A stretch of DNA of 64,000 nucleotides, from the NCBI RefSeq assembly GCF_900129785.1, contig NZ_FSRC01000001.1:1240001-1304000 (forward strand), written 5' to 3'. The stretch is from Algoriphagus halophilus. GTDB lineage: Bacteria > Bacteroidota > Bacteroidia > Cytophagales > Cyclobacteriaceae. The position numbers and the translations under genes are program-made. Below are positions 10,085 to 31,567 of the stretch, one piece after another. Under the pieces are notes generated by a model, which saw only the letters and a list, made by a program, of their open reading frames with translations, made no database searches and was not told where the DNA came from. The stretch's first letter is position 1. The number at the start of each line of letters is the position of its first letter.

Positions 10085-10783
10085 TTAATCAGTCGGGAAA
10101 TCCGGATCCAACTGTTTTTTAGATTCTTCAGAGCAGGAGCTAACAAAGCTTTTTCCAGCGGAGGCAATCAGGTCACAAGTCCCTGTTCCCATTCCCATGA
10201 TCGTACGCATCGCATCTTGAGTACTTGAATTCAAAAAAGTGATTTTTGATTTCGGAACGTGGTATATATTTCCGTTGGTGGGGTTGGGGGCAGTCGGTAC
10301 AAAAATCGTATATAACTCATCATTGATTTGATCAGTTATGAATCCAGTCATCATGGTTCCTGAATTGAAAGGATCTATTAATACAACTTCAGAAAATGGG
10401 AGTTTTTTAAGCCCCACAAATTGATAAACTGTCTGATGGATTAGGCTATACAGGGGCACTTTGGTCAAGTATTTTTTTTCAAAGCGGGTGAAATAAACCT
10501 TTCCTACTTTGTGACGGATCAACGCTCCTATGATAAATATAAAAAGCACCAATATTCCAATGGAAAGAAAGTTGATCAACCAATGTGGTTCATCTGTTCC
10601 GGGGTCAAGAATAGAGCTAATGGGGGCAACTAACTTGAAGATAAAATTGAATGAGAAAGAAAGAAGGATCAATACGATCGATAAAGGTAGTAAAATCAGA
10701 AAGCCTTGGAATAAGGTGTCTAATAGGTATCCTCTTTCAGGTTTGTTGCTGATGTTTTCTGATGAATTGATTACGGAGTCCAT
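10085..10783 (-). CDS. DUF502 family membrane protein
   Basis: 232-residue protein with two N-terminal membrane helices (about residues 27-50 and 73-95) and the DUF502 core: a P-L-Y-S-L-I-H-Q-T segment, PFNSGTMMTGFITD, TIFVPTAPNPTNG and a Cys-containing tail. DUF502 proteins are widespread in bacteria and in plants (COV-like) without a defined biochemical role. It lies upstream of nothing obvious on its strand: the ald terminator is 150 nt upstream. Confidence 0.88.
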   Translation of the reverse strand: MDSVINSSENISNKPERGYLLDTLFQGFLILLPLSIVLILLSFSFNFIFKLVAPISSILDPGTDEPHWLINFLSIGILVLFIFIIGALIRHKVGKVYFTRFEKKYLTKVPLYSLIHQTVYQFVGLKKLPFSEVVLIDPFNSGTMMTGFITDQINDELYTIFVPTAPNPTNGNIYHVPKSKITFLNSSTQDAMRTIMGMGTGTCDLIASAGKSFVSSCSEESKKQLDPDFPTD

Positions 10784-10934
10784 TTTGTGATAGGTTATTA
10801 ATTGTTATTAGTCAATGAATTAATCTATAAATTCATGCCATCATCCCATGGACCAAAAGGAAGAGGTTTTCAATTAAATTCCTGTGTAGCCCATGGATAT
10901 AATTGGGGATTTTTTGCCTCCATTAATTTTTTGT

Positions 10935-10969
10935 CAAAAAAAATCCCTCCTGTTTTCACAAGAGGGATT
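10935..10969 (-). terminator. Intrinsic terminator of ald
   Basis: Stem AATCCCTC (10942-10949) pairs with GAGGGATT (10962-10969) across a 12-nt loop. On the minus strand the hairpin is followed by a run of eight T. It lies 20 nt after the ald stop. Confidence 0.85.
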
Positions 10970-10988
10970 CATTGGATATATGTAAGAG

Positions 10989-12107
10989 TTAATCAGCCAA
11001 GTATTTAACTACTGGAGTATAATCCATATCGAATGCTTCTGCAACTGCTTGATAAACGATATCGCCATTGATCACATTTAAGCCAGGAACCAATTCTGGG
11101 TTTTCCTGAGCTGCTTTTTTCCATCCTTTATCTGCAAGTTGAATTGCATAAGGAAGGGTAGCATTGGTCAATGCAAGAGTAGAAGTATAAGGTACAGCTC
11201 CTGGCATGTTTGCTACACAATAATGAACAACGTCATCAATGATATAAGTTGGATCTTGGTGAGTAGTAGGCTTACAAGTTTCGATACATCCACCTTGATC
11301 TACAGCCACGTCAACAAGTACAGTGCCTGGTTGCATTTCTTTTAGCATGTCTTTGGTGATCAAATGCGGAGCTTTAGCACCAGGAATCAACACAGCACCA
11401 ATGATCAAATCATGATTTTTGATCATTTTTCTGATGTTGTATTCATTCGACATCATGGTCTTTACATTCGCTGGCATTACATCAGCAAGGTATCTCATTC
11501 TAGGAAGTGACACATCCATGATCGTGACATCAGCACCTAATCCTGCAGCCATCCAAGCTGCTTGAGTACCTACGATTCCACCACCTAAAATCAAGACCTT
11601 AGCAGGTAAAACTCCAGGAACGCCACCTAATAGAATGCCTCTTCCTTTCAAAGGTTTTTCAAGGTAGTTTGCTCCTTTTTGAACTGCCATTCTACCTGCC
11701 ACCTCTGACATCGGAATTAATAGGGGTAAGCTTCTGTCTGCTTTTTCCACTGTTTCGTAGGCAAGACAAACAGAACCACTTTCAACCATTGCTTTGGTTA
11801 AAGGTTCGTAAGATGCAAAGTGGAAATAGGTAAATAATAATTGATCCTTTTTGATGAGCTTATATTCAGGTTCAATAGGCTCTTTTACCTTCATGATCAT
11901 TTCGGCAATTTCATACGTTGCCTCGATGGTAGGAAGTATGTTTGCTCCTGCTTCTACATAGGATTCATCTGAAAAACCAGATCCTTCACCAGCTGTATGT
12001 TGTACGTATACAGTGTGGCCTCTTTTAACCAATTCTTTTGCACCTGCAGGAGTGAGGGCTACTCGATTTTCGTTGTTTTTAATTTCCTTTGGAACACCTA
12101 TAATCAT
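10989..12107 (-). CDS. ald: Alanine dehydrogenase
   Basis: 372-residue NAD-dependent L-alanine dehydrogenase (L-alanine to pyruvate and ammonia), the standard family length. N-terminal MIIGVPKEIKNNENRVALTP, then QLLFTYFHFAS (substrate lysine/histidine region) and the nucleotide fold LGGGIVGTQAAWMA, followed by MPGAVPYTSTLALTNATLPY. The longest frame begins at 12176, but the extra 23 residues are not part of the family; the ATG at 12105-12107 fits. A TATCTTTG -7 element at 12140-12147 on this strand supports the shorter start. Followed by a strong terminator. Confidence 0.95.
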   Translation of the reverse strand: MIIGVPKEIKNNENRVALTPAGAKELVKRGHTVYVQHTAGEGSGFSDESYVEAGANILPTIEATYEIAEMIMKVKEPIEPEYKLIKKDQLLFTYFHFASYEPLTKAMVESGSVCLAYETVEKADRSLPLLIPMSEVAGRMAVQKGANYLEKPLKGRGILLGGVPGVLPAKVLILGGGIVGTQAAWMAAGLGADVTIMDVSLPRMRYLADVMPANVKTMMSNEYNIRKMIKNHDLIIGAVLIPGAKAPHLITKDMLKEMQPGTVLVDVAVDQGGCIETCKPTTHQDPTYIIDDVVHYCVANMPGAVPYTSTLALTNATLPYAIQLADKGWKKAAQENPELVPGLNVINGDIVYQAVAEAFDMDYTPVVKYLAD

Positions 12108-12139
12108 GATAGATATATTTGGATTTGTATATATTACCA

Positions 12140-12147
12140 CAAAGATA
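12140..12147 (-). promoter_or_regulatory. Candidate -7 element (TATCTTTG) for ald
   Basis: Plus-strand CAAAGATA gives TATCTTTG on the minus strand, an exact TAnnTTTG match. It predicts a transcript starting about 25 nt before the ald ATG at 12107. Confidence 0.5.
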
Positions 12148-12453
12148 CTAAGCAAAAACAAACTGAAAAGTCCCACAGCAAATAGTATTTGGTGTGATTT
12201 GGAAAATCTTAAAAAATCAGAACATTGTTTTGTTAATAGATTTTATCGTTAGAATAATTTTAAAGAAAAGCGTTTAGACAAGTTTAATTTGGAAATTTTT
12301 TTTCAGGTTCATCATTTGCTATATTCTAGAACTTAAACTGTTGAAAAACAGATTTTTGAATTGTTATTTTTTTAGGAAAAGAATAATATTTTGTTTTTTC
12401 TTATTAAATCAGGTTTGATCCAAATTTTTGTTGGAAAAATATTGTCTTAGAAA

Positions 12454-12484
12454 TTTGGAAAAAATATGGAATTGGCTATTTTTG
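12454..12484 (+). promoter_or_regulatory. Full Bacteroidota-type promoter for the fused E1 gene
   Basis: TTTG at 12454-12457, 19 nt spacer, TATTTTTG at 12477-12484. Both boxes match the -33 TTTG and -7 TAnnTTTG consensus with canonical spacing. Transcription would start near 12490, leaving a leader of about 50 nt. Confidence 0.65.
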
Positions 12485-12539
12485 GAGTATCCTTATTAGA
12501 AGTAAAAATCTGCCCAAAATAATTTTAGATAAATAGTTT

Positions 12540-14954
12540 ATGCCAGAAGTACAACCCATAAGAAAAACCGAAATATCTCCAGACCTATCGAAAGATGCTA
12601 TCCTTGAGGACTTTAGGGTTGCGCTTTTGAGTAGGCAAGCCTCCCTGGTAGGGAGAAAAGAAGTATTTATGGGGAAAGCTAAGTTTGGGATTTTTGGAGA
12701 TGGTAAAGAGTTGGCTCAAATTGCCATGGCTCGGGCTTTCCAAATTGGCGATTTCCGATCTGGTTATTATAGGGATCAGACCTTTATGATGGCAATTGGT
12801 GAATTGACTGTTCAGCAGTACTTTTCACAGTTATATGCTCATACCAATGTGGAGATGGAACCTGCTAGTGCCGGTAGGTTGATGAATGGTCATTTTGCGA
12901 CTCGTTCCCTTCATGAAGATGGAAGCTGGAAGGAGTTGACCAAGATGTATAATTCTGCTGCAGATATTTCTCCTACAGCTGCCCAAATGCCAAAACTTTT
13001 AGGATTAGCATATGCATCCAAATTATTTAGGGAAAATAAAGGCTTAAAAAGCTTTACAGATTTATCTATCAATGGAAATGAGGTGGCTTGGGGTACGATA
13101 GGTAACGCATCTACATCCGAGGGGATTTTCTTTGAAGCGATCAATGCTGCCGGTGTGATGCAGGTTCCCATGGTAATTTCTATTTGGGATGATGCTTACG
13201 GAATTTCCGTACCACAAGAATATCATACCACGAAAGGCAGTATTTCAGATGCACTTTCTGGTTTTGAAAGAACTGATTCACAGAAAGGCTTTGAGATAAT
13301 TAAAGTGAAGGGATGGGATTACGAAGGCTTGATGCACGCGTTTTTTAATGCGGGTAAAATCGCAAGAGAAGATCATGTTCCTGTGTTGATTCATGTAGAA
13401 GAAATGACTCAACCCCAAGGACACTCTACCTCGGGATCCCATGAACGGTACAAATCTGCCGAGCGATTGAAATGGGAAAAGGAATGGGATTGTATTGATA
13501 AATTCAGAGAGTATATCCTTTCATCCAAAATCGCCACTCCTGAAACCTTAGATAAGATTGAGGCTCAGGTAAAAGCAGATGTTAAAAAACAAAAAGAAAC
13601 TGCATGGCAGGAATTTTCTAAAGAGATCAAGGCAGAACTTCAAGAAGCTATCTCTTTAATTAAAGGAGCTGCAGCGCATAGTACAAGAAAAGTGATTTTA
13701 ACCCAGATGGCAGATGAGCTTTCTAGGACGATTAACCCAATCAGAAAAGACGTTATCTCCACTGTAAGAAAAGCGCTTTTAACCCTGCGTTTTGATTCCA
13801 ATGAAGCCAAGAATGAGTTAAAATCTTGGTATAAGGAGCAAACAAAAAAGAATCATGATCGATACAATAGCCATTTGTATAGTGAGTCAAAATGGAGTGT
13901 CCAGAATATTGAGGAGGTTAAACCAGCGTACGATGAAAAATCTATTCTGGTAGATGGAAGAGAAGTACTTCAGAAGTATTTTGATTATACACTCGAACAT
14001 AACCCTAAGTTTTTTGCCTTTGGAGAAGATGTAGGAAAAATAGGAGATGTAAACCAGGCTTTTGCGGGGTTGCAAGCCAAGCATGGTGAATTAAGGGTGT
14101 CTGATACCAGTATTAGAGAGGCAACGATTGTAGGCCAAGGGATTGGTACGGCATTAAGAGGATTAAGGCCAGTTGCAGAAATTCAGTATATCGATTATTT
14201 GTTATATGGTCTACAAATGCTTTCTGATGATTTGGCCTGTCTTCAATATCGAACCAAAGGAGGTCAAAAAGCGCCTTTAATCATTAGAACAAGAGGGCAT
14301 CGATTAGAGGGAGTTTGGCATTCTGGTTCCCCAATGGGAATGATTTTATCAACACTTCGGGGAATGGTGGTATGTGTTCCAAGAGACATGACCCAAGCAG
14401 CTGGAATGTATTCTACTTTATTGAAGTCTGATGAGCCTGCTATTGTGGTAGAATGTCTCAATGGCTATCGGTTAAAAGAAAAATTGCCTGCCAATTTAGG
14501 CGAGTATACCGTGCCTTTGGGTAAACCTGAGGTACTCAGAGAAGGAAAAGATATTACCATTGTCACCTATGGTTCGATGTGTAGAATTGTACTCGAGGCC
14601 GCCGGTGAGTTAATTGAACTTGGGATAGATGTAGAAGTGATTGATGTGCAGACGCTTTTACCATTCGATACCCATGGGGTAATAGGAGATTCCATTAAGA
14701 AAACTAATCGAGTGATTTTTGCTGATGAGGATGTTCCGGGAGGTGCTTCAGCTTACATGATGCAGCAAGTAATAGAAGGTCAAGAAGTATTTCGGTATTT
14801 GGATTCTGAGCCATTGACGATAGCGGCCAAAGCACATAGACCTGCTTATTCCTCGGATGGAGATTATTTTTCAAAACCAAGTTTAGAAGATATAGTCGAA
14901 AAAGTTTATGCAGTCATGAACGAAGTAGATCCGAAATCATTCCCCGCATTATAA
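12540..14954 (+). CDS. 2-oxoacid dehydrogenase E1, fused alpha and beta subunits
   Basis: 804-residue thiamine-diphosphate enzyme decarboxylating a 2-oxoacid and passing the acyl group to lipoyl-E2. Residues about 20-390 are the E1-alpha half; about 450-804 are the E1-beta half (AFGEDVGKIGDVNQ, VGQGIGTALRGLRPVAEIQY, RTRGHRLEGVWHSGSPMG, EDVPGGASAYMMQQ). The ThDP motif, usually GDG...NN, is altered here: G-N-A-S-T-S-E-G at 188-195 and W-D-D-A-Y at 216-220. The pair is fused through a helical, Lys/Glu-rich linker. Likely substrates are branched-chain 2-oxoacids or pyruvate; family-level evidence favours the branched-chain type. E2 is 45 kb away at 60.6 kb. Confidence 0.88.
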   Translation: MPEVQPIRKTEISPDLSKDAILEDFRVALLSRQASLVGRKEVFMGKAKFGIFGDGKELAQIAMARAFQIGDFRSGYYRDQTFMMAIGELTVQQYFSQLYAHTNVEMEPASAGRLMNGHFATRSLHEDGSWKELTKMYNSAADISPTAAQMPKLLGLAYASKLFRENKGLKSFTDLSINGNEVAWGTIGNASTSEGIFFEAINAAGVMQVPMVISIWDDAYGISVPQEYHTTKGSISDALSGFERTDSQKGFEIIKVKGWDYEGLMHAFFNAGKIAREDHVPVLIHVEEMTQPQGHSTSGSHERYKSAERLKWEKEWDCIDKFREYILSSKIATPETLDKIEAQVKADVKKQKETAWQEFSKEIKAELQEAISLIKGAAAHSTRKVILTQMADELSRTINPIRKDVISTVRKALLTLRFDSNEAKNELKSWYKEQTKKNHDRYNSHLYSESKWSVQNIEEVKPAYDEKSILVDGREVLQKYFDYTLEHNPKFFAFGEDVGKIGDVNQAFAGLQAKHGELRVSDTSIREATIVGQGIGTALRGLRPVAEIQYIDYLLYGLQMLSDDLACLQYRTKGGQKAPLIIRTRGHRLEGVWHSGSPMGMILSTLRGMVVCVPRDMTQAAGMYSTLLKSDEPAIVVECLNGYRLKEKLPANLGEYTVPLGKPEVLREGKDITIVTYGSMCRIVLEAAGELIELGIDVEVIDVQTLLPFDTHGVIGDSIKKTNRVIFADEDVPGGASAYMMQQVIEGQEVFRYLDSEPLTIAAKAHRPAYSSDGDYFSKPSLEDIVEKVYAVMNEVDPKSFPAL

Positions 14955-26203: not shown

Positions 26204-27589
26204 ATGAGAAGGTTCGCGTATTTTTTTGTTTTTCTGTGTCTAGGTTGGGTTTCATGTTCAAAAAGCACTCTTCCAGTAAATGAAAACGATAAAAACCAAG
26301 TTGTTACAGAGCATCTTTACAATTATGAATTAGTATTTACGGATGATGCTGATTTTAAACCATTGTCCAATAACTCCTATTGTGAAATGGGTTTTTCAAG
26401 TGAGGGATGCCAAAGTTTGGTAACTAACCTTAAAAATGGTGTTATAGAATTCATAAAATCCATAGACAGTACAATTCAAGTTGATAAAAACCATATAAGG
26501 GTTTATTCTGAAGTGTCTGTTTATATGGAAGAACTTACAGCTTCCCAATATGAAAATTTGAACAGGAATTCAGTAGCATTAAATTATTTCAGTAAACAGA
26601 TTTTTGAATTGCAAATTAGACGGCCAATCATGCAGTCGGACTTTATAGAGCAAACTAGAAAGCCAATCATGCAAGAGCAACTTAGGTATGATTCTTTATC
26701 AAAATCAAGTACCATGATTCAGGAAATTGGTGGAGGCCAACCTGGTCTACCTGTTCAAAACCATCGCGTATGGATAGTGGATTCTGGAATTGATAAAAAT
26801 CACCAGGATTTGAATTTTGAGCCAGCTCAAATAGATTTGTCAGCAGACTTTTCAGTCCCTTCTAGTAACCCGAAAAATGATCCATTTAATGATGAAAATG
26901 GACATGGTACATTCATGGCAGGTGTAATAGGAGGTTTGGCATCTTCTGATCCTATTTACCTCAATGGATATGGTGTCAATGGAGTTTATCCAAATGCAAA
27001 AATGATCTCTATTAAGATTTTTGATAAAAATGATAATACCAATACTGCCGAAATCGTATCTGCTTTAAATCATATTTTATCAAATTCCATTTCAGGTGAT
27101 ATTGTAAATTTAAGTTGGGGTAGTGATATCCAATTTGGAGATTGTACTGCTCCTCAATATTTAGGAATTCGAACTTTAATTTTAACGCTAGCGAATCAAG
27201 GGGTCAAAGTAGTAATGTCAGCTGGAAATAGTTCGAAAGAGTCATTAACTAATTTTCCTGGTTGCATTGATGCTACTAACCCTAACCCGACTATATCCAA
27301 TATATATACGATCGGATCTGTTGAAATCCCATGTTCTGGAACCTATCTATATTCTAGTTTTTCAGATTATGGTAGACCTACGGTAGATTATTTAGCGCCT
27401 GGTGAGGATATTTTTACTACCGCTCTTGGGGGAGAATATGTATTAGTTTCTGGGACTTCTCTTTCTGCGGCAATGTTTTCCGGCATTCTTTATCATAATC
27501 AGGGCGTGGGTACATTGACAACAATCAAAAGAGGGGCGGCAACCGGTGATCCAGATCCTGATTATCCTGTAGCTAAAATAGGAAACTGA
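26204..27589 (+). CDS. S8 (subtilisin-family) peptidase with R/KPIMQ repeats, lipoprotein
   Basis: 461 residues. A lipoprotein signal (W-V-S-C, Cys18) suggests membrane anchoring. Residues about 40-135 are a prosegment-like domain, then RRPIMQ and RKPIMQ occur at 139-157, a short linker, and the subtilase domain: Asp193 in IVDSGID, His234 in GHGTFMAG, Asn/Gly region MSAGNSS, Ser419 in SGTSLSA. All catalytic residues are present. The protein stops soon after the catalytic serine (about 40 residues), so it has no extra C-terminal domain and no type IX secretion tail. It shares the PIMQ repeat and layout with the gene at 30305-31567. Convergent with the cyclase gene. Confidence 0.85.
   Translation: MRRFAYFFVFLCLGWVSCSKSTLPVNENDKNQVVTEHLYNYELVFTDDADFKPLSNNSYCEMGFSSEGCQSLVTNLKNGVIEFIKSIDSTIQVDKNHIRVYSEVSVYMEELTASQYENLNRNSVALNYFSKQIFELQIRRPIMQSDFIEQTRKPIMQEQLRYDSLSKSSTMIQEIGGGQPGLPVQNHRVWIVDSGIDKNHQDLNFEPAQIDLSADFSVPSSNPKNDPFNDENGHGTFMAGVIGGLASSDPIYLNGYGVNGVYPNAKMISIKIFDKNDNTNTAEIVSALNHILSNSISGDIVNLSWGSDIQFGDCTAPQYLGIRTLILTLANQGVKVVMSAGNSSKESLTNFPGCIDATNPNPTISNIYTIGSVEIPCSGTYLYSSFSDYGRPTVDYLAPGEDIFTTALGGEYVLVSGTSLSAAMFSGILYHNQGVGTLTTIKRGAATGDPDPDYPVAKIGN
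26621..26674 (+). repeat. Coding repeat: RPIMQ / KPIMQ motif pair
   Basis: Two copies in the linker just upstream of the S8 catalytic domain: residues 140-144 (R-P-I-M-Q) and 153-157 (K-P-I-M-Q). The second S8 gene has three GRPIMQ copies in the equivalent place. Confidence 0.85.
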
Positions 27590-27786
27590 AATACAAGGAG
27601 ATGAATGGAATTGTCTTGGCTTTGGGTTGTGGTGTGAGAATGGGGTTTATTATTGACGAAAATGAAAAGTTGAAATAGCAGACCTGATCAAATTTGATGT
27701 AAATCGGTCAGGCCTTAGTAAGTATTATGAAGGACCAGCACCCATTTTATAATGTATGTTGGGATCCTTTATTCTTTTTGAAATCG

Positions 27787-29985
27787 TCAATTTTTTGTCT
27801 GAAGCTGAATTTCAGATAAACGTAATTCTTTATTTAGTTCATTATGTTTTTGTGAAATTTCCTTCAAAATTGATTGAAATTTTGAATCACTTCGGTATGC
27901 ATCAAATATGGGGTTGCTTATGATGTGAAAATCATCTCTGAATCCATAGGCTACTGCTTGATCTAAATAATTTATTGCTCTTGCTTTTCTGTTATTTAAA
28001 ACTTCTAATTGGGCTAAATCAAATAAAATTACTGGATCTGTACTTAAGGGATTATTGTCGCCCTTTTCTCTAATACTAATGGCATTTTTTATGAGGCTGT
28101 CGGCAATTTCAGTTTTTCCTGATTGAAGGTTGGCATAGGCGAGAGGAATTGCTGCTGAGTTAAATGGGTCGTTCAGTATTTCGGGATTTTCAAGTATCGC
28201 TTTTTCAAAAAATTCTCTAGATTTTTGGTGCTCACCACTCCAGAATTCAATAAACCCAGCAGTAGAATAAACATAATCTAAATCATGAATAGAATCAGCT
28301 AGTATTTCCTCAATAGCTTCAGAAGCTTTTTCTTTATTTCCTTGCTCTAAATATAAATAAGCAATTTGTTCAGAAGTTACTGGATCAAATTTGATGGAAT
28401 TGGCTTTTTCAAGCCAGTCTAAAGCCAAATCAAAGCGGTTTAAAATTCTATATATCCATCCTGAAATCTGAAATGGAATATAGCTTGTAGGGTTTAGTGT
28501 GGAAGATTTTTGTTGCAATAGGAGGGCCTTTGCCAAGTGGCCTTGAATCATATACACAGTTGCTAAATTACCAATGGCTTCACTATAATTGGGTTTGATT
28601 GAAATAGCTATTTCAAATGATTTTTTTGCATTGTCTAACTCCCCTAAGTAGTAATATGTGTTTCCCCTAGTTTTATATAGTTCTGCTGAATTTGAATCAA
28701 TTAACAAGCCCTTTTCACTAACAGAGTTGCTTGAGTCAAACAAGGATAATTGCGCATAGGTATCTGCCAGGCCTGCATAAGCCAGAGTAAAATTTGGATC
28801 TATTTCAATTGCTTTCTTGAAATACTCAACTGCTATATTGTAGCTTTCAGGATTATATTCAGAATATTTTTCCTTTGCTTTCAAGTACCATTCATAGGCA
28901 TCTGGACTTGAAGTCAAAACTTTGCCTATTTCCGCCTCTTCTTTTGCAGATAAAGAAATTCCTAAAACTCTTGAAATCTCTTTTGCAATTTCACTTTGAA
29001 TTCTCAATAGATCTTGACCACTTCGAGTAAAAGAAGAGGTCCACAGGTTTTTGTTTTCTTCTACATCAATAAACTGGACGTTTACTTTTGTCATATCACC
29101 CAAGTATTGAATAGATCCCTTTAAGACAGTGCTGACCTCAAGTATCTCGGCTAAAGAGTCTAAATTTAAATTCGGGTTTCTAATATCCTTAATCGAACCA
29201 TAAGAGATTACTTTAATGTCGTTTACTTCGGATAATTGACTGATAATTTCTTGGGTAATATCTTTCGAATAAACATCTTGGGATGCTTTAGGATCAACAT
29301 TGGTAAATGGCAAGACAGCCACGGATTTTTCTTTTTCCCAGGTATAATTGTTCCACAAAAGGGAATAAATTAAGAATAAAAGAATGGTGAGGGTAGAGGC
29401 CAAGGCTACCCAGAATTTCCAAGGTTCACGCTCTTGACTTTTTACCTTCTTAATCATATCCGCCCTTTTTGGGGTTGCCAAAGGTGGATTAGTCAGCGCA
29501 TGGAGTTCTAGTTCTTTCGCGACATTTTTCAGTCGGAATAGGCCTAAATTAATGTGGGTAAACCTGCTGTGATTCGGAAGGTTAGCCAATACATCTGATG
29601 AGAATAAAACACAGGAGGGAACTCCGATGCTTTGAATTCTGGATGCAACATTGACCGCATCTCCATAGACGTCTCCATTATCGAGGATAATACCGCCGCA
29701 ATGAAGACCAATTCTAAGTTCTAGTTCACTTGATTTTCCCCATTCTTTTTGTATTTCCAGACTGGCTTCTAAGGCTTCCTCAGCAGTTTCAAAAATTGCC
29801 AAAATCCCATCACCTAATTCTTTGATGATTTTACCCCGATGTTTTTCGAAGACCTCTGAGTGAAGAACCAAATTTTGCTTCATTAATTCGAAGGCATGAT
29901 CTTCATCTTGACCCATCAAAAGGGTGTATCCGACAATATCAGAAAAGTAGACGATTGAATGTTTCCTATTTAAGACTTGATCCAT
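27787..29985 (-). CDS. Adenylate/guanylate cyclase with TPR domain
   Basis: 732 residues: class III cyclase domain (about 5-170), one membrane helix (about 190-212), a TolB/FlgO-like beta region (VAVLPFTNV ... TVLKGSIQYLG ... NLWTSSF, 220-330) and six or more TPR units to about 700. Catalytic features are intact: metal Asp in YFSDIVGYT, K-E-L-G-D-G-I with the Lys and Asp of adenylate specificity, and VYGDAVNVASRIQ with the Asn and Arg of the transition state. Expected to make cAMP, with the TPR half in the periplasm or at the membrane as a sensor. Lies between two PIMQ-type S8 peptidases; convergent with the first and divergent from the second. Confidence 0.9.
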   Translation of the reverse strand: MDQVLNRKHSIVYFSDIVGYTLLMGQDEDHAFELMKQNLVLHSEVFEKHRGKIIKELGDGILAIFETAEEALEASLEIQKEWGKSSELELRIGLHCGGIILDNGDVYGDAVNVASRIQSIGVPSCVLFSSDVLANLPNHSRFTHINLGLFRLKNVAKELELHALTNPPLATPKRADMIKKVKSQEREPWKFWVALASTLTILLFLIYSLLWNNYTWEKEKSVAVLPFTNVDPKASQDVYSKDITQEIISQLSEVNDIKVISYGSIKDIRNPNLNLDSLAEILEVSTVLKGSIQYLGDMTKVNVQFIDVEENKNLWTSSFTRSGQDLLRIQSEIAKEISRVLGISLSAKEEAEIGKVLTSSPDAYEWYLKAKEKYSEYNPESYNIAVEYFKKAIEIDPNFTLAYAGLADTYAQLSLFDSSNSVSEKGLLIDSNSAELYKTRGNTYYYLGELDNAKKSFEIAISIKPNYSEAIGNLATVYMIQGHLAKALLLQQKSSTLNPTSYIPFQISGWIYRILNRFDLALDWLEKANSIKFDPVTSEQIAYLYLEQGNKEKASEAIEEILADSIHDLDYVYSTAGFIEFWSGEHQKSREFFEKAILENPEILNDPFNSAAIPLAYANLQSGKTEIADSLIKNAISIREKGDNNPLSTDPVILFDLAQLEVLNNRKARAINYLDQAVAYGFRDDFHIISNPIFDAYRSDSKFQSILKEISQKHNELNKELRLSEIQLQTKN

Positions 29986-30154
29986 AAAAAATTACAGAAG
30001 TTGGGGGCTTTATAGTTTGCATTTTTCCCAGCTAATTAAACTAAGCGAAATAAAGTGGTATTTGAAATAATAATACGTGATTTATATGGGCTTGTTAAAA
30101 GTTTTTTTAAACATTCATTATATGGTTTCATAAATATCAATTTCTGTTGGATCA

Positions 30155-30203
30155 AATCAGAATTTGGTAATCAATTTATTCTGATTCTTGATATTATTCA
30201 AGA
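30155..30203. promoter_or_regulatory. Overlapping inverted repeats, possible operator
   Basis: AATCAGAAT (30155-30163) and its complement ATTCTGATT (30178-30186) with a 14-nt spacer, directly joined to TCTTGA-N6-TCAAGA (30186-30203). Both are perfect. They sit about 100-150 nt before the S8 start at 30305. Confidence 0.5.
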
Positions 30204-30221
30204 TACACTAATTTATTTACC

Positions 30222-30258
30222 ATAAAAATGTATTTTGAACAATAAAAAGAGTATTTTG
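30222..30258 (+). repeat. Near-perfect direct repeat, ATAAAAA(T)G(A)GTATTTTG type
   Basis: ATAAAAATGTATTTTG (30222-30237) and ATAAAAAGAGTATTTTG (30242-30258), separated by 4 nt. They may be part of the S8 promoter. Confidence 0.5.
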
Positions 30259-30304
30259 GTATTACTCATTTGAGCCGATTTTGTATTGTTTTAACATCTT
30301 CCTT

Positions 30305-31567
30305 ATGAAAAAGTTATTGATTGGATTCTTATTTTTTATGATTTGTCTATCAGGTTATTGTCAAAAAACCTATGTGGTCACCATGAAAGCTTCCTTTGAA
30401 GTTCCTGTTTTTGAAAACCGGGCAACCAATTCTGATAGAATCAGGCAATCTGATTTAAACCAAGACAAGAGAAATCAGAAAAAAGTAAGGCTTCAGGAAT
30501 TCCTTAATAGAAAAGGAATTAGAAATGTGAAAAATCAATTTTTTGACGTAAAAGTAGGCTTTGTTGCACCCTTGACAGACCAAGAGCGAGAAAATCTATT
30601 AAATGATCCACAGGTTGAAAGCGTGGACGAAGACATAGAGATTCAAGGTAGGCCGATTATGCAAAGTACACCTGACTCTCAAGGAAGACCAATCATGCAA
30701 GGCAGGCCTATCATGCAATCTGATGATATAGAATCTTCATGGCTGTATGATGAAGGAAATAAAGCTAGTTGTGCCATCGCCTTGGTGAACGGTTCAACAG
30801 ATAGTAATAACCGTAAAGAAAGTATTTGGGTGATAGATACAGGGGTGGATGCCAACCATAGAGATTTGAATGTAAATCAATCTTCCAGACTTGCAATAAG
30901 CTTTGTAGATAGTCAACCATTTAATGACATATTGGGACATGGAACTCATGTTGCTGGCTTGGCTGCAGGTAAAGGTTCTGGAAGCTTATCTGCAACTGGA
31001 GTGTCCTCAGGAGCAGAAATCATCCCTATTAAAGTGTTTGATAATAATGGAGTAAGTAGTTGGGCTAAGATCCTTTTAGCTTTGGATCATATTGCAAACT
31101 ATGGTCAACCTGGTGATGTGGTATTAATGAGTTTGGGTAGTTTCGATGTATCCAATTGTGCTACTTCTAACCCAGCATTAACATCGGCTATTATGACAAT
31201 TGCTGATAGCGGAATGTTTGTAGTAATGTCTGCAGGTAACAACAATGGAAATGCGGCTCAAAATTTACCAGGATGTATCAATGGGCCTAATATCTTTACA
31301 GTCGGAGCGTTGGATTTCAGATGTGGTGCTTTAGGAGGAAAGTATGCGGCATCTAACTTTGGTTCTGGGATTGATTATTTTGTACCAGGAGCAAATATCT
31401 TTTCAGCTTGGCCAAATCAAAATGGGCAGAATGCCTATCAGGTCATGTCTGGAACCTCTATGTCAGCAGGAATTATGGCAGGAATTGTGCATGCTACACG
31501 TGGTGCTCCAAGGTCCTCTGGAACCATTACCATCAATGGAATTAGCTATAAAATAGCATCTAGATAA
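30305..31567 (+). CDS. S8 (subtilisin-family) peptidase with three GRPIMQ repeats
   Basis: 420 residues from the ATG of MKKLLIGFLFF; a longer frame from a TTG at 30281 is unlikely because it lacks the signal shape. Secretion signal to about residue 20, then an inhibitor-I9-like prosegment (KTYVVTMKASFEVPVF ... VESVDEDIEI), then GRPIMQ at 115-120, 127-132 and 133-138. The subtilase domain has Asp178 in VIDTGVD, His212 in GHGTHVAG, MSAGNNNG and Ser385 in SGTSMSAG. It ends 35 residues after the serine, with no secretion-system tail. Divergent from the cyclase gene and followed by a very strong terminator. Confidence 0.88.
   Translation: MKKLLIGFLFFMICLSGYCQKTYVVTMKASFEVPVFENRATNSDRIRQSDLNQDKRNQKKVRLQEFLNRKGIRNVKNQFFDVKVGFVAPLTDQERENLLNDPQVESVDEDIEIQGRPIMQSTPDSQGRPIMQGRPIMQSDDIESSWLYDEGNKASCAIALVNGSTDSNNRKESIWVIDTGVDANHRDLNVNQSSRLAISFVDSQPFNDILGHGTHVAGLAAGKGSGSLSATGVSSGAEIIPIKVFDNNGVSSWAKILLALDHIANYGQPGDVVLMSLGSFDVSNCATSNPALTSAIMTIADSGMFVVMSAGNNNGNAAQNLPGCINGPNIFTVGALDFRCGALGGKYAASNFGSGIDYFVPGANIFSAWPNQNGQNAYQVMSGTSMSAGIMAGIVHATRGAPRSSGTITINGISYKIASR
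30647..30718 (+). repeat. Coding repeat: three GRPIMQ motifs
   Basis: Residues 115-120, 127-132 and 133-138 of the S8 peptidase. The last two copies are directly abutting (G-R-P-I-M-Q-G-R-P-I-M-Q), and the codons differ (agg ccg, aga cca, agg cct), so the peptide and not the DNA is conserved. Confidence 0.9.

Follow-up and report, generated by a model that had tools for sequence, protein, structure and literature searches.

What does a repeated pentapeptide do in the linker of two exported proteases, and why do their genes lie next to that of a membrane-bound cyclase? This question is raised by a three-gene locus of Algoriphagus halophilus (assembly GCF_900129785.1, contig NZ_FSRC01000001.1), found at 26204-31567 of a 64,000-nt stretch (positions 1,240,001-1,304,000, forward strand), referred to here as the window. 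All three genes are intact open reading frames (ORFs). S8 peptidase A (26204..27589, plus strand; 461 aa) and S8 peptidase B (30305..31567, plus strand; 420 aa) enclose a gene on the minus strand (27787..29985; 732 aa) encoding a membrane protein with a class III adenylate cyclase domain, a transmembrane (TM) segment, a TolB/FlgO-like region and tetratricopeptide repeats (TPR), which we call the partner. Judged by sequence comparison, the locus is a conserved cassette of two or three genes, in which one or two predicted exported subtilases with an xPxMQ linker stand tail to tail with a putative membrane receptor.

The linker motif and its conservation

All motif copies sit between the pro-domain and the catalytic domain. 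Peptidase A has two (R/KPIMQ), namely RPIMQ at residues 140-144 (R140-Q144; 26621..26635, plus strand) and KPIMQ at residues 153-157 (K153-Q157; 26660..26674, plus strand), the second being the better conserved in the alignment of A. Peptidase B has three (GRPIMQ), with RPIMQ at residues 116-120 (30650..30664), 128-132 (30686..30700) and 134-138 (30704..30718), all on the plus strand; its residues are numbered in the 420-aa form starting at ATG 30305, which gives a better signal peptide than TTG 30281, from where the ORF is open. An initial annotation of this DNA had given the same coordinates, motif positions and copy numbers, which ORF and residue checks confirmed, and we likewise predict A to be a lipoprotein (signal ending ...WVSC) and B to be secreted. 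The catalytic triads are complete (D193/H234/S419 in A and D178/H212/S385 in B), and this Asp-His-Ser arrangement, with the oxyanion Asn in an S8 fold, places both proteins in family S8; Pfam Peptidase_S8 matches A at 95.8 bits and B at 94.4 bits. Pfam Inhibitor_I9 was matched in B only (24.5 bits, cut-off 21.2); the Pfam scan of A gave no I9 match, and the N-terminal region of A is I9-like only in the order of its predicted strands and helices.

To score repeats blind to the motif, we used a criterion of two 5-mers with 4 of 5 residues identical. The linkers of 57/59 partner-adjacent S8 proteins passed it, compared with a mean of 11% of shuffled linkers; the two cassette members that failed are L087_6 and L105_6. 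Three S8 fragments (L160_0, L167_8 and L192_0) were dropped before these counts, while G141, missed by the gene caller, was added to them by hand and left out of the S8 tree and of the codon, convergence and following-residue counts. At comparable positions, the codons of the copies differ synonymously in 214/357 cases, and copy pairs with identical peptides have identical DNA in only 2/67. An origin of the motif by chance or by recent DNA duplication was rejected on the basis of the shuffled linkers and the differing codons. Differing codons under agreeing copies point to selection on the peptide, as the initial annotation had argued from the codons in the window, which do vary from copy to copy.

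The motif is conserved in homologues, which that annotation had left to be checked. At least two copies are present in 40/40 A-type homologues checked (P0121-P0160, a set headed by A itself), and among the best 50 homologues of B, 46 were scorable and 30 of these had two or more. The other 16 comprise 13 more distant S8 proteins without the motif, one protein with a single copy (P0005) and two with a divergent form (P0040 and P0042). Repeats were also found in all seven more distant homologues.

S8 proteins lacking the partner present a different picture. None of the 22 partnerless S8 homologues examined has the motif (one of them, L183, ends near a contig end). Our repeat criterion fired in 8/24 S8 proteins that are not partner-adjacent; two of these (L146 and L196) belong to cassettes at contig ends, three have PT-rich linkers (L182, L199 and L200) and three are weak (L164, L165 and L185). 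A tree of 82 catalytic domains separates the 22 motif-less proteins from the rest at a single branch (support 97/95), and the A and B proteins of the genus form separate groups in it (97/84 and 94/88). Across these sequences, then, motif presence follows the partner.

Across the whole genome there are 21 PIMQ-encoding DNA sites, five of them in A and B. When the 3-kb surroundings of the other 16 were read for frames of at least 40 codons, a single [RK]PIMQ was found, in a putative 75-codon minus-strand frame (L003), and the idea that PIMQ is a genome-wide tag was rejected on this basis.

The form of the motif depends on lineage and includes RPIMQ, RPRMQ, RPMMQ, RARMQ, NPMQQ, KPIQQ, RPIHQ, EPIMM and EPILH. 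Mean copy identity is 0.88 within one protein and 0.63 between proteins (61 proteins), and in 143 copies the last position is Q in 137, the fourth M in 108 and the second P in 123 or A in 20, with the third free; the motif alphabet was drawn up after the sequences had been seen, so that these column counts are descriptive and the identity between proteins is raised by construction. Five linkers (L096, L101, L089, L098 and L196) have a degenerate copy (GPVLQ, GPVIQ or TPIIQ, DPILQ, DPFIQ) between two good ones, as if a third copy had decayed. Where A and B occur in the same genome, they agree at the second motif residue in 16/16 cases: RA is paired with RA in 3 and P with P in 13, and there is no mixed pair. 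Their motif likeness is 0.80 in the same genome and 0.72 in permuted pairs (p = 0.0002), although few independent events underlie this comparison; the A and B labels of L087 are exchanged in it, which leaves the identity score unaffected. This agreement within genomes suggests a common reader of the motif.

Linkage of the peptidases to the partner

Within the genus, we searched 72 genomes (E up to 1e-30 for the peptidases and up to 1e-60 for the cyclase), 22 of which fall outside the class of 90% completeness and 5% contamination. A- or B-type peptidases were found in 34 genomes and the cyclase in 32 (30 of the 50 inside that class), and 32/32 cyclase genomes have a peptidase. The two peptidase genomes without a cyclase (G011 and G046) contain S8 proteins with neither motif nor partner (L181 and L182), and 40/72 have neither motif-type peptidases nor cyclase. 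One peptidase is a fragment lacking the linker (G024), and in G040 peptidase and partner are split between two contigs, each of which stops at or shortly after the 3' side of its gene. What had been a link by neighbourhood only is thus now a well-supported linkage, and wherever the downstream sequence is intact, motif-bearing peptidases have the partner next to them, convergent with its nearest peptidase. Neither outcome that the initial annotation had set against itself, an unconserved motif or peptidases never found beside the cyclase, came true.

Gene order is less constant. The arrangement in the window, where the peptidases flank the cyclase, had headed the initial annotation; it holds there and in G015 and G021, but as a rule it fails, since only 3/16 two-peptidase loci are A-cyclase-B and 13/16 are A-B-cyclase with the cyclase pointing back. 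Loci with A alone or B alone also occur, and a fixed A-cyclase-B unit was rejected for these reasons. In the window, the partner converges with A, leaving 197 bp between the 3' ends, and diverges from B; the two divergent genes share a 319-bp intergenic region (29986-30304), unlike most relatives. In the loci fetched, 46 partner-type genes lie no more than 4 kb from such an S8 gene. All 46 are convergent with the nearest one, 44 of them within 240 bp, and 17 overlap at the 3' ends. Such convergent pairs occur in about ten genera and at several unrelated locations. An overlap of exactly 26 bases was seen in 14 loci (L088, L090, L091, L093-L097, L099, L101, L155 and L190-L192), including L155, a TIR-type locus of another genus. 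Such overlap may couple the S8 and partner genes by antisense effects or termination.

A gene resembling HGSNAT borders the cassette and is present in 71/72 genus genomes. On the stretches beside it in the 20 cassette-less genomes fetched, A, B and the cyclase are all missing in 20/20, and in 19 a single stretch carries both the left and the right cassette neighbour, the right side differing in L316; in several, other genes lie between these neighbours. In G050 (L090) the cassette is found among unrelated genes. From these comparisons, the cassette is gained or lost together.

In a sample of 390 genomes of the family, drawn evenly from a larger group and with the genus included, the pair was found in 14 genomes of eight other genera; up to two and four candidates were scored per genome, and the family counts are lower bounds. 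Where listed, the partners outside the genus are 29-38% identical to that of the window. One cassette (G079) lies at a contig end, where a small ORF (L146_0) resembles the partner tail, and in G359 the peptidase is a fragment that does not show its motif. Five of the 14 loci have the HGSNAT neighbour and nine have no genus flank, although some of their flanks are common among themselves. A generic S8-motif scan of named relatives returned 80 loci without a partner match, and the S8 linkers examined from 18 of these loci all lacked the motif. An order-wide search with alignment A3 (390 genomes) gave a best match outside the family of 247 bits, which, compared by score alone, lies within the range of both generic S8 proteins and the weakest cassette members.

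These data bear on whether the genes are simply neighbours by inheritance, with no joint work. A shared flank in much of the genus and in five of the 14 outside loci is what such neutral synteny would give. On the other hand, L090 and nine non-genus loci keep the pair without the genus flank, convergent in all, so that the linkage outlives its context, and the three genes are absent together from every cassette-less genome fetched. Neutral synteny is already disfavoured, and we consider it very improbable.

The partner and a possible signalling route

In the window, the partner consists of a class III cyclase domain, one TM segment (residues 192-210), a TolB/FlgO-like region and TPRs, and Pfam reports Guanylate_cyc and TPRs. 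The first two catalytic motifs are kept in all 37 cyclase-type partners; the third fits the pattern in 25 of them, and in the remaining 12 it is GDAVNxxxR. By the specificity rule for such cyclases, we take the pattern KELGDG...GDAVN to denote an adenylate cyclase. In L157 (G110) the protein is split, with neighbouring ORFs for the cyclase domain (245 aa) and the TPR part (524 aa).

In seven genomes, the cyclase is replaced by a TIR-like N-terminus with the motif D[IV]FISYR, and the TolB/FlgO-TPR part is kept. Both this motif and E96 are conserved throughout alignment A4, whose seven rows are six partners and L161. Pfam TIR gave no match at E 0.01 in three proteins, PADLOC matched ThsB in one of two (E 0.0012), and the best PDB profile match of the domain was a weak one to the flax L6 TIR (E 0.15). 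The TIR type lies on one side of a branch in the partner tree (100/99), so that one swap between cyclase and TIR suffices. Hydropathy predicts a single TM segment for cyclase-type partners and three for TIR-type ones, which, with the enzyme inside, would place the TolB/FlgO-TPR part of either type outside. In L153, the first TIR-like TPR gene is followed by a second (10506-12560), which by eye apparently lacks the three TM segments.

Interchangeable cyclase and TIR-like outputs are also known from defence systems, and the pair might detect envelope damage and trigger a protective or suicidal response through the cyclase or TIR domain, in an anti-phage or stress cassette. PADLOC matches to PycC, ThsB (17.2 bits) and 'subtilase' (58.8 bits) would fit; these are weak, and reflect shared domains. 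No effector gene was recognised beside the pair, and most genus loci share one chromosomal place rather than a defence island, which makes this the least probable of the explanations that we weighed. Labelling the locus as a defence system, as Pycsar or as a cyclase of ribosomally synthesised and modified peptides was rejected, these being weak shared-domain matches only; NCBIfam TIGR04510 (peptide-modification-system cyclase) scored 68.5 bits on the partner, against a cut-off of 400.

The surroundings of the motif are informative about its possible use. The residue after a copy is G, S, E, T, A, D or N in 138/140 cases, compared with 44% for these residues in the linker background, although the copies are mutually related. 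The last copy stands 32-45 residues ahead of the catalytic Asp, and in an AlphaFold2 (AF2) model of B the third copy, our proposed junction site, is ordered at the pro/mature junction with a beta bridge at I136-M137. Indirectly, these features of sequence and model fit autoprocessing at the motif, which the initial annotation had considered as a role beside docking of a partner and modification of the peptide.

Putting together the linked genes, the conserved motif, the agreement of copies within proteins and the swap of output domains, we propose, as a reading that falls only slightly short of an even chance, that the cassette signals, as the initial annotation had suggested from the neighbourhood. 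The zymogen would cut itself after the motif Gln (P4-P1 = P-x-M-Q, with a small or acidic P1'), and the repeated sites would expose or release short peptides that have ...PIMQ at their end, candidates being STPDSQGRPIMQ and GRPIMQ. The TPR domain, predicted to be periplasmic and common to both peptidases, would bind the motif, and binding would set the output of the cytoplasmic messenger domain (cyclic AMP, cAMP, here; TIR in one clade). By this route the cell would sense when its own protease is exported, activated or crowded.

Several observations weigh against this proposal. Outside the genus, pairing is one-sided, as eight fetched loci have related cyclase- or TIR-TPR genes without an S8 gene (L161 and L174-L180), and linkage within the genus is partly vertical synteny, related genomes not being independent. 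In some motifs the last residue is H or M (EPILH, EPIMM), so a site of Gln followed by a small residue is not universal, and W follows one copy in a distant homologue. The predicted local distance difference test (pLDDT) score of the AF2 model is below 50 over residues 116-128 of B, that is, copy 1 and the start of copy 2, and a copy identical in A and B is found in only 6/16 genomes. Of the unpaired loci, L161 (G293) has a gene like those of the TIR-type partners (TIR-TM-TPR) but no S8 gene anywhere on the stretch fetched, and L179 (G267) has six tandem cyclase/TPR-type genes with no S8 neighbour on its stretch.

The low model confidence at the first copy, which looks disordered, suits the main rival, in which the periplasmic TPR domain docks onto uncut repeats in the zymogen or in a retained pro-domain, so that the peptidase is tethered or inhibited at the membrane and occupancy sets the cyclase. 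TPR domains commonly bind short linear motifs, repeats would give avidity, and the agreement of copies within proteins, as well as an A-B likeness above that of permuted pairs, is expected of one shared binder. The small or acidic residue after nearly every copy and the narrow distance to the catalytic Asp fit a protease site better, and we regard docking as unlikely.

A protease site could also act wholly in cis, the repeats being redundant autoprocessing or inhibitory sites and the partner sensing something else, such as its own cleavage by the peptidase. The location at the pro/mature junction would agree with this, as would the scarcity of copies identical in A and B. P3 of a subtilase substrate is solvent-exposed, which the variable third residue of P-x-M-Q matches. 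A precedent for Gln at P1 is supplied by PCSK9 (PMC8551645). Such a device would not lead us to expect that the motif follows the partner and is missing from the partnerless homologues, or that A and B, from separate tree groups, always agree at the second motif residue; we rate it a little below docking in probability.

Comparison with known systems

Every part of the proposed signalling cassette is of a known kind, and the combination was not found in literature searches aimed at it among open-licence papers. Class III cyclase-TolB/FlgO-TPR proteins are common in these genomes and have the same domain order and catalytic motifs as the partner, whose subfamily differs in being tied to motif-bearing peptidases. 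In the comparison with Pycsar, PycC matched at 28.5 bits, and the neighbours of the partner are peptidases. Conflict systems that combine peptidases with cyclic nucleotide cyclase or TIR domains have been described; in the portion of that account available to us, they are built on MoxR-vWA, iSTAND or GTPase components with trypsin or caspase domains, and the sole mention of subtilisin there is a NucA fusion (PMC7159879). What sets the cassette peptidases apart from subtilases with an I9 pro-domain (pro-subtilisin E, pro-Tk-subtilisin and PCSK9) is the linker, which is about 36 residues long and carries 2-4 copies of the motif, where PCSK9 has one site.

The nearest parallel, by analogy of working rather than by membership, would be Rap-Phr of the RRNPPA group, in which, according to one account, extracellular proteases mature tandem-pheromone precursors and TPR domains bind the products (PMC11343458). 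Both would use an exported precursor with short tandem peptides, extracellular proteases that mature it and a TPR domain as the peptide receptor. RRNPPA receptors are cytoplasmic, join a helix-turn-helix domain or 3-helix bundle to TPRs and bind a re-imported peptide, whereas the partner has the order cyclase or TIR-like domain, TM, TolB/FlgO, TPR, making it a transmembrane protein with a predicted periplasmic TPR part. The cassette also differs in that its repeats lie inside the protease itself, its genes are convergent and its hosts belong to the Cyclobacteriaceae/Algoriphagus group; no homology to Rap is claimed.

Little is known of the extracellular signals behind cAMP production in Bacteroidota. 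The linker motif was seen only beside one receptor family, so the putative ligand-receptor pair is directly testable with synthetic peptides readable from the sequence, and a receptor that can bear either a cyclase or, after a swap, a TIR-like domain would link the sensing of peptides to nucleotide messengers of two classes. Perhaps, and here we are more tentative than for signalling as such, the protease carries its own signal, in the form of tandem pheromone-like pentapeptides in the zymogen junction that it frees itself and that a TPR receptor with an interchangeable cytoplasmic output (adenylate cyclase or TIR-like) reads outside the inner membrane. If true, this would be a Gram-negative, transmembrane counterpart of TPR-peptide quorum sensing in which a single polypeptide holds both the pheromone and the enzyme that matures it.

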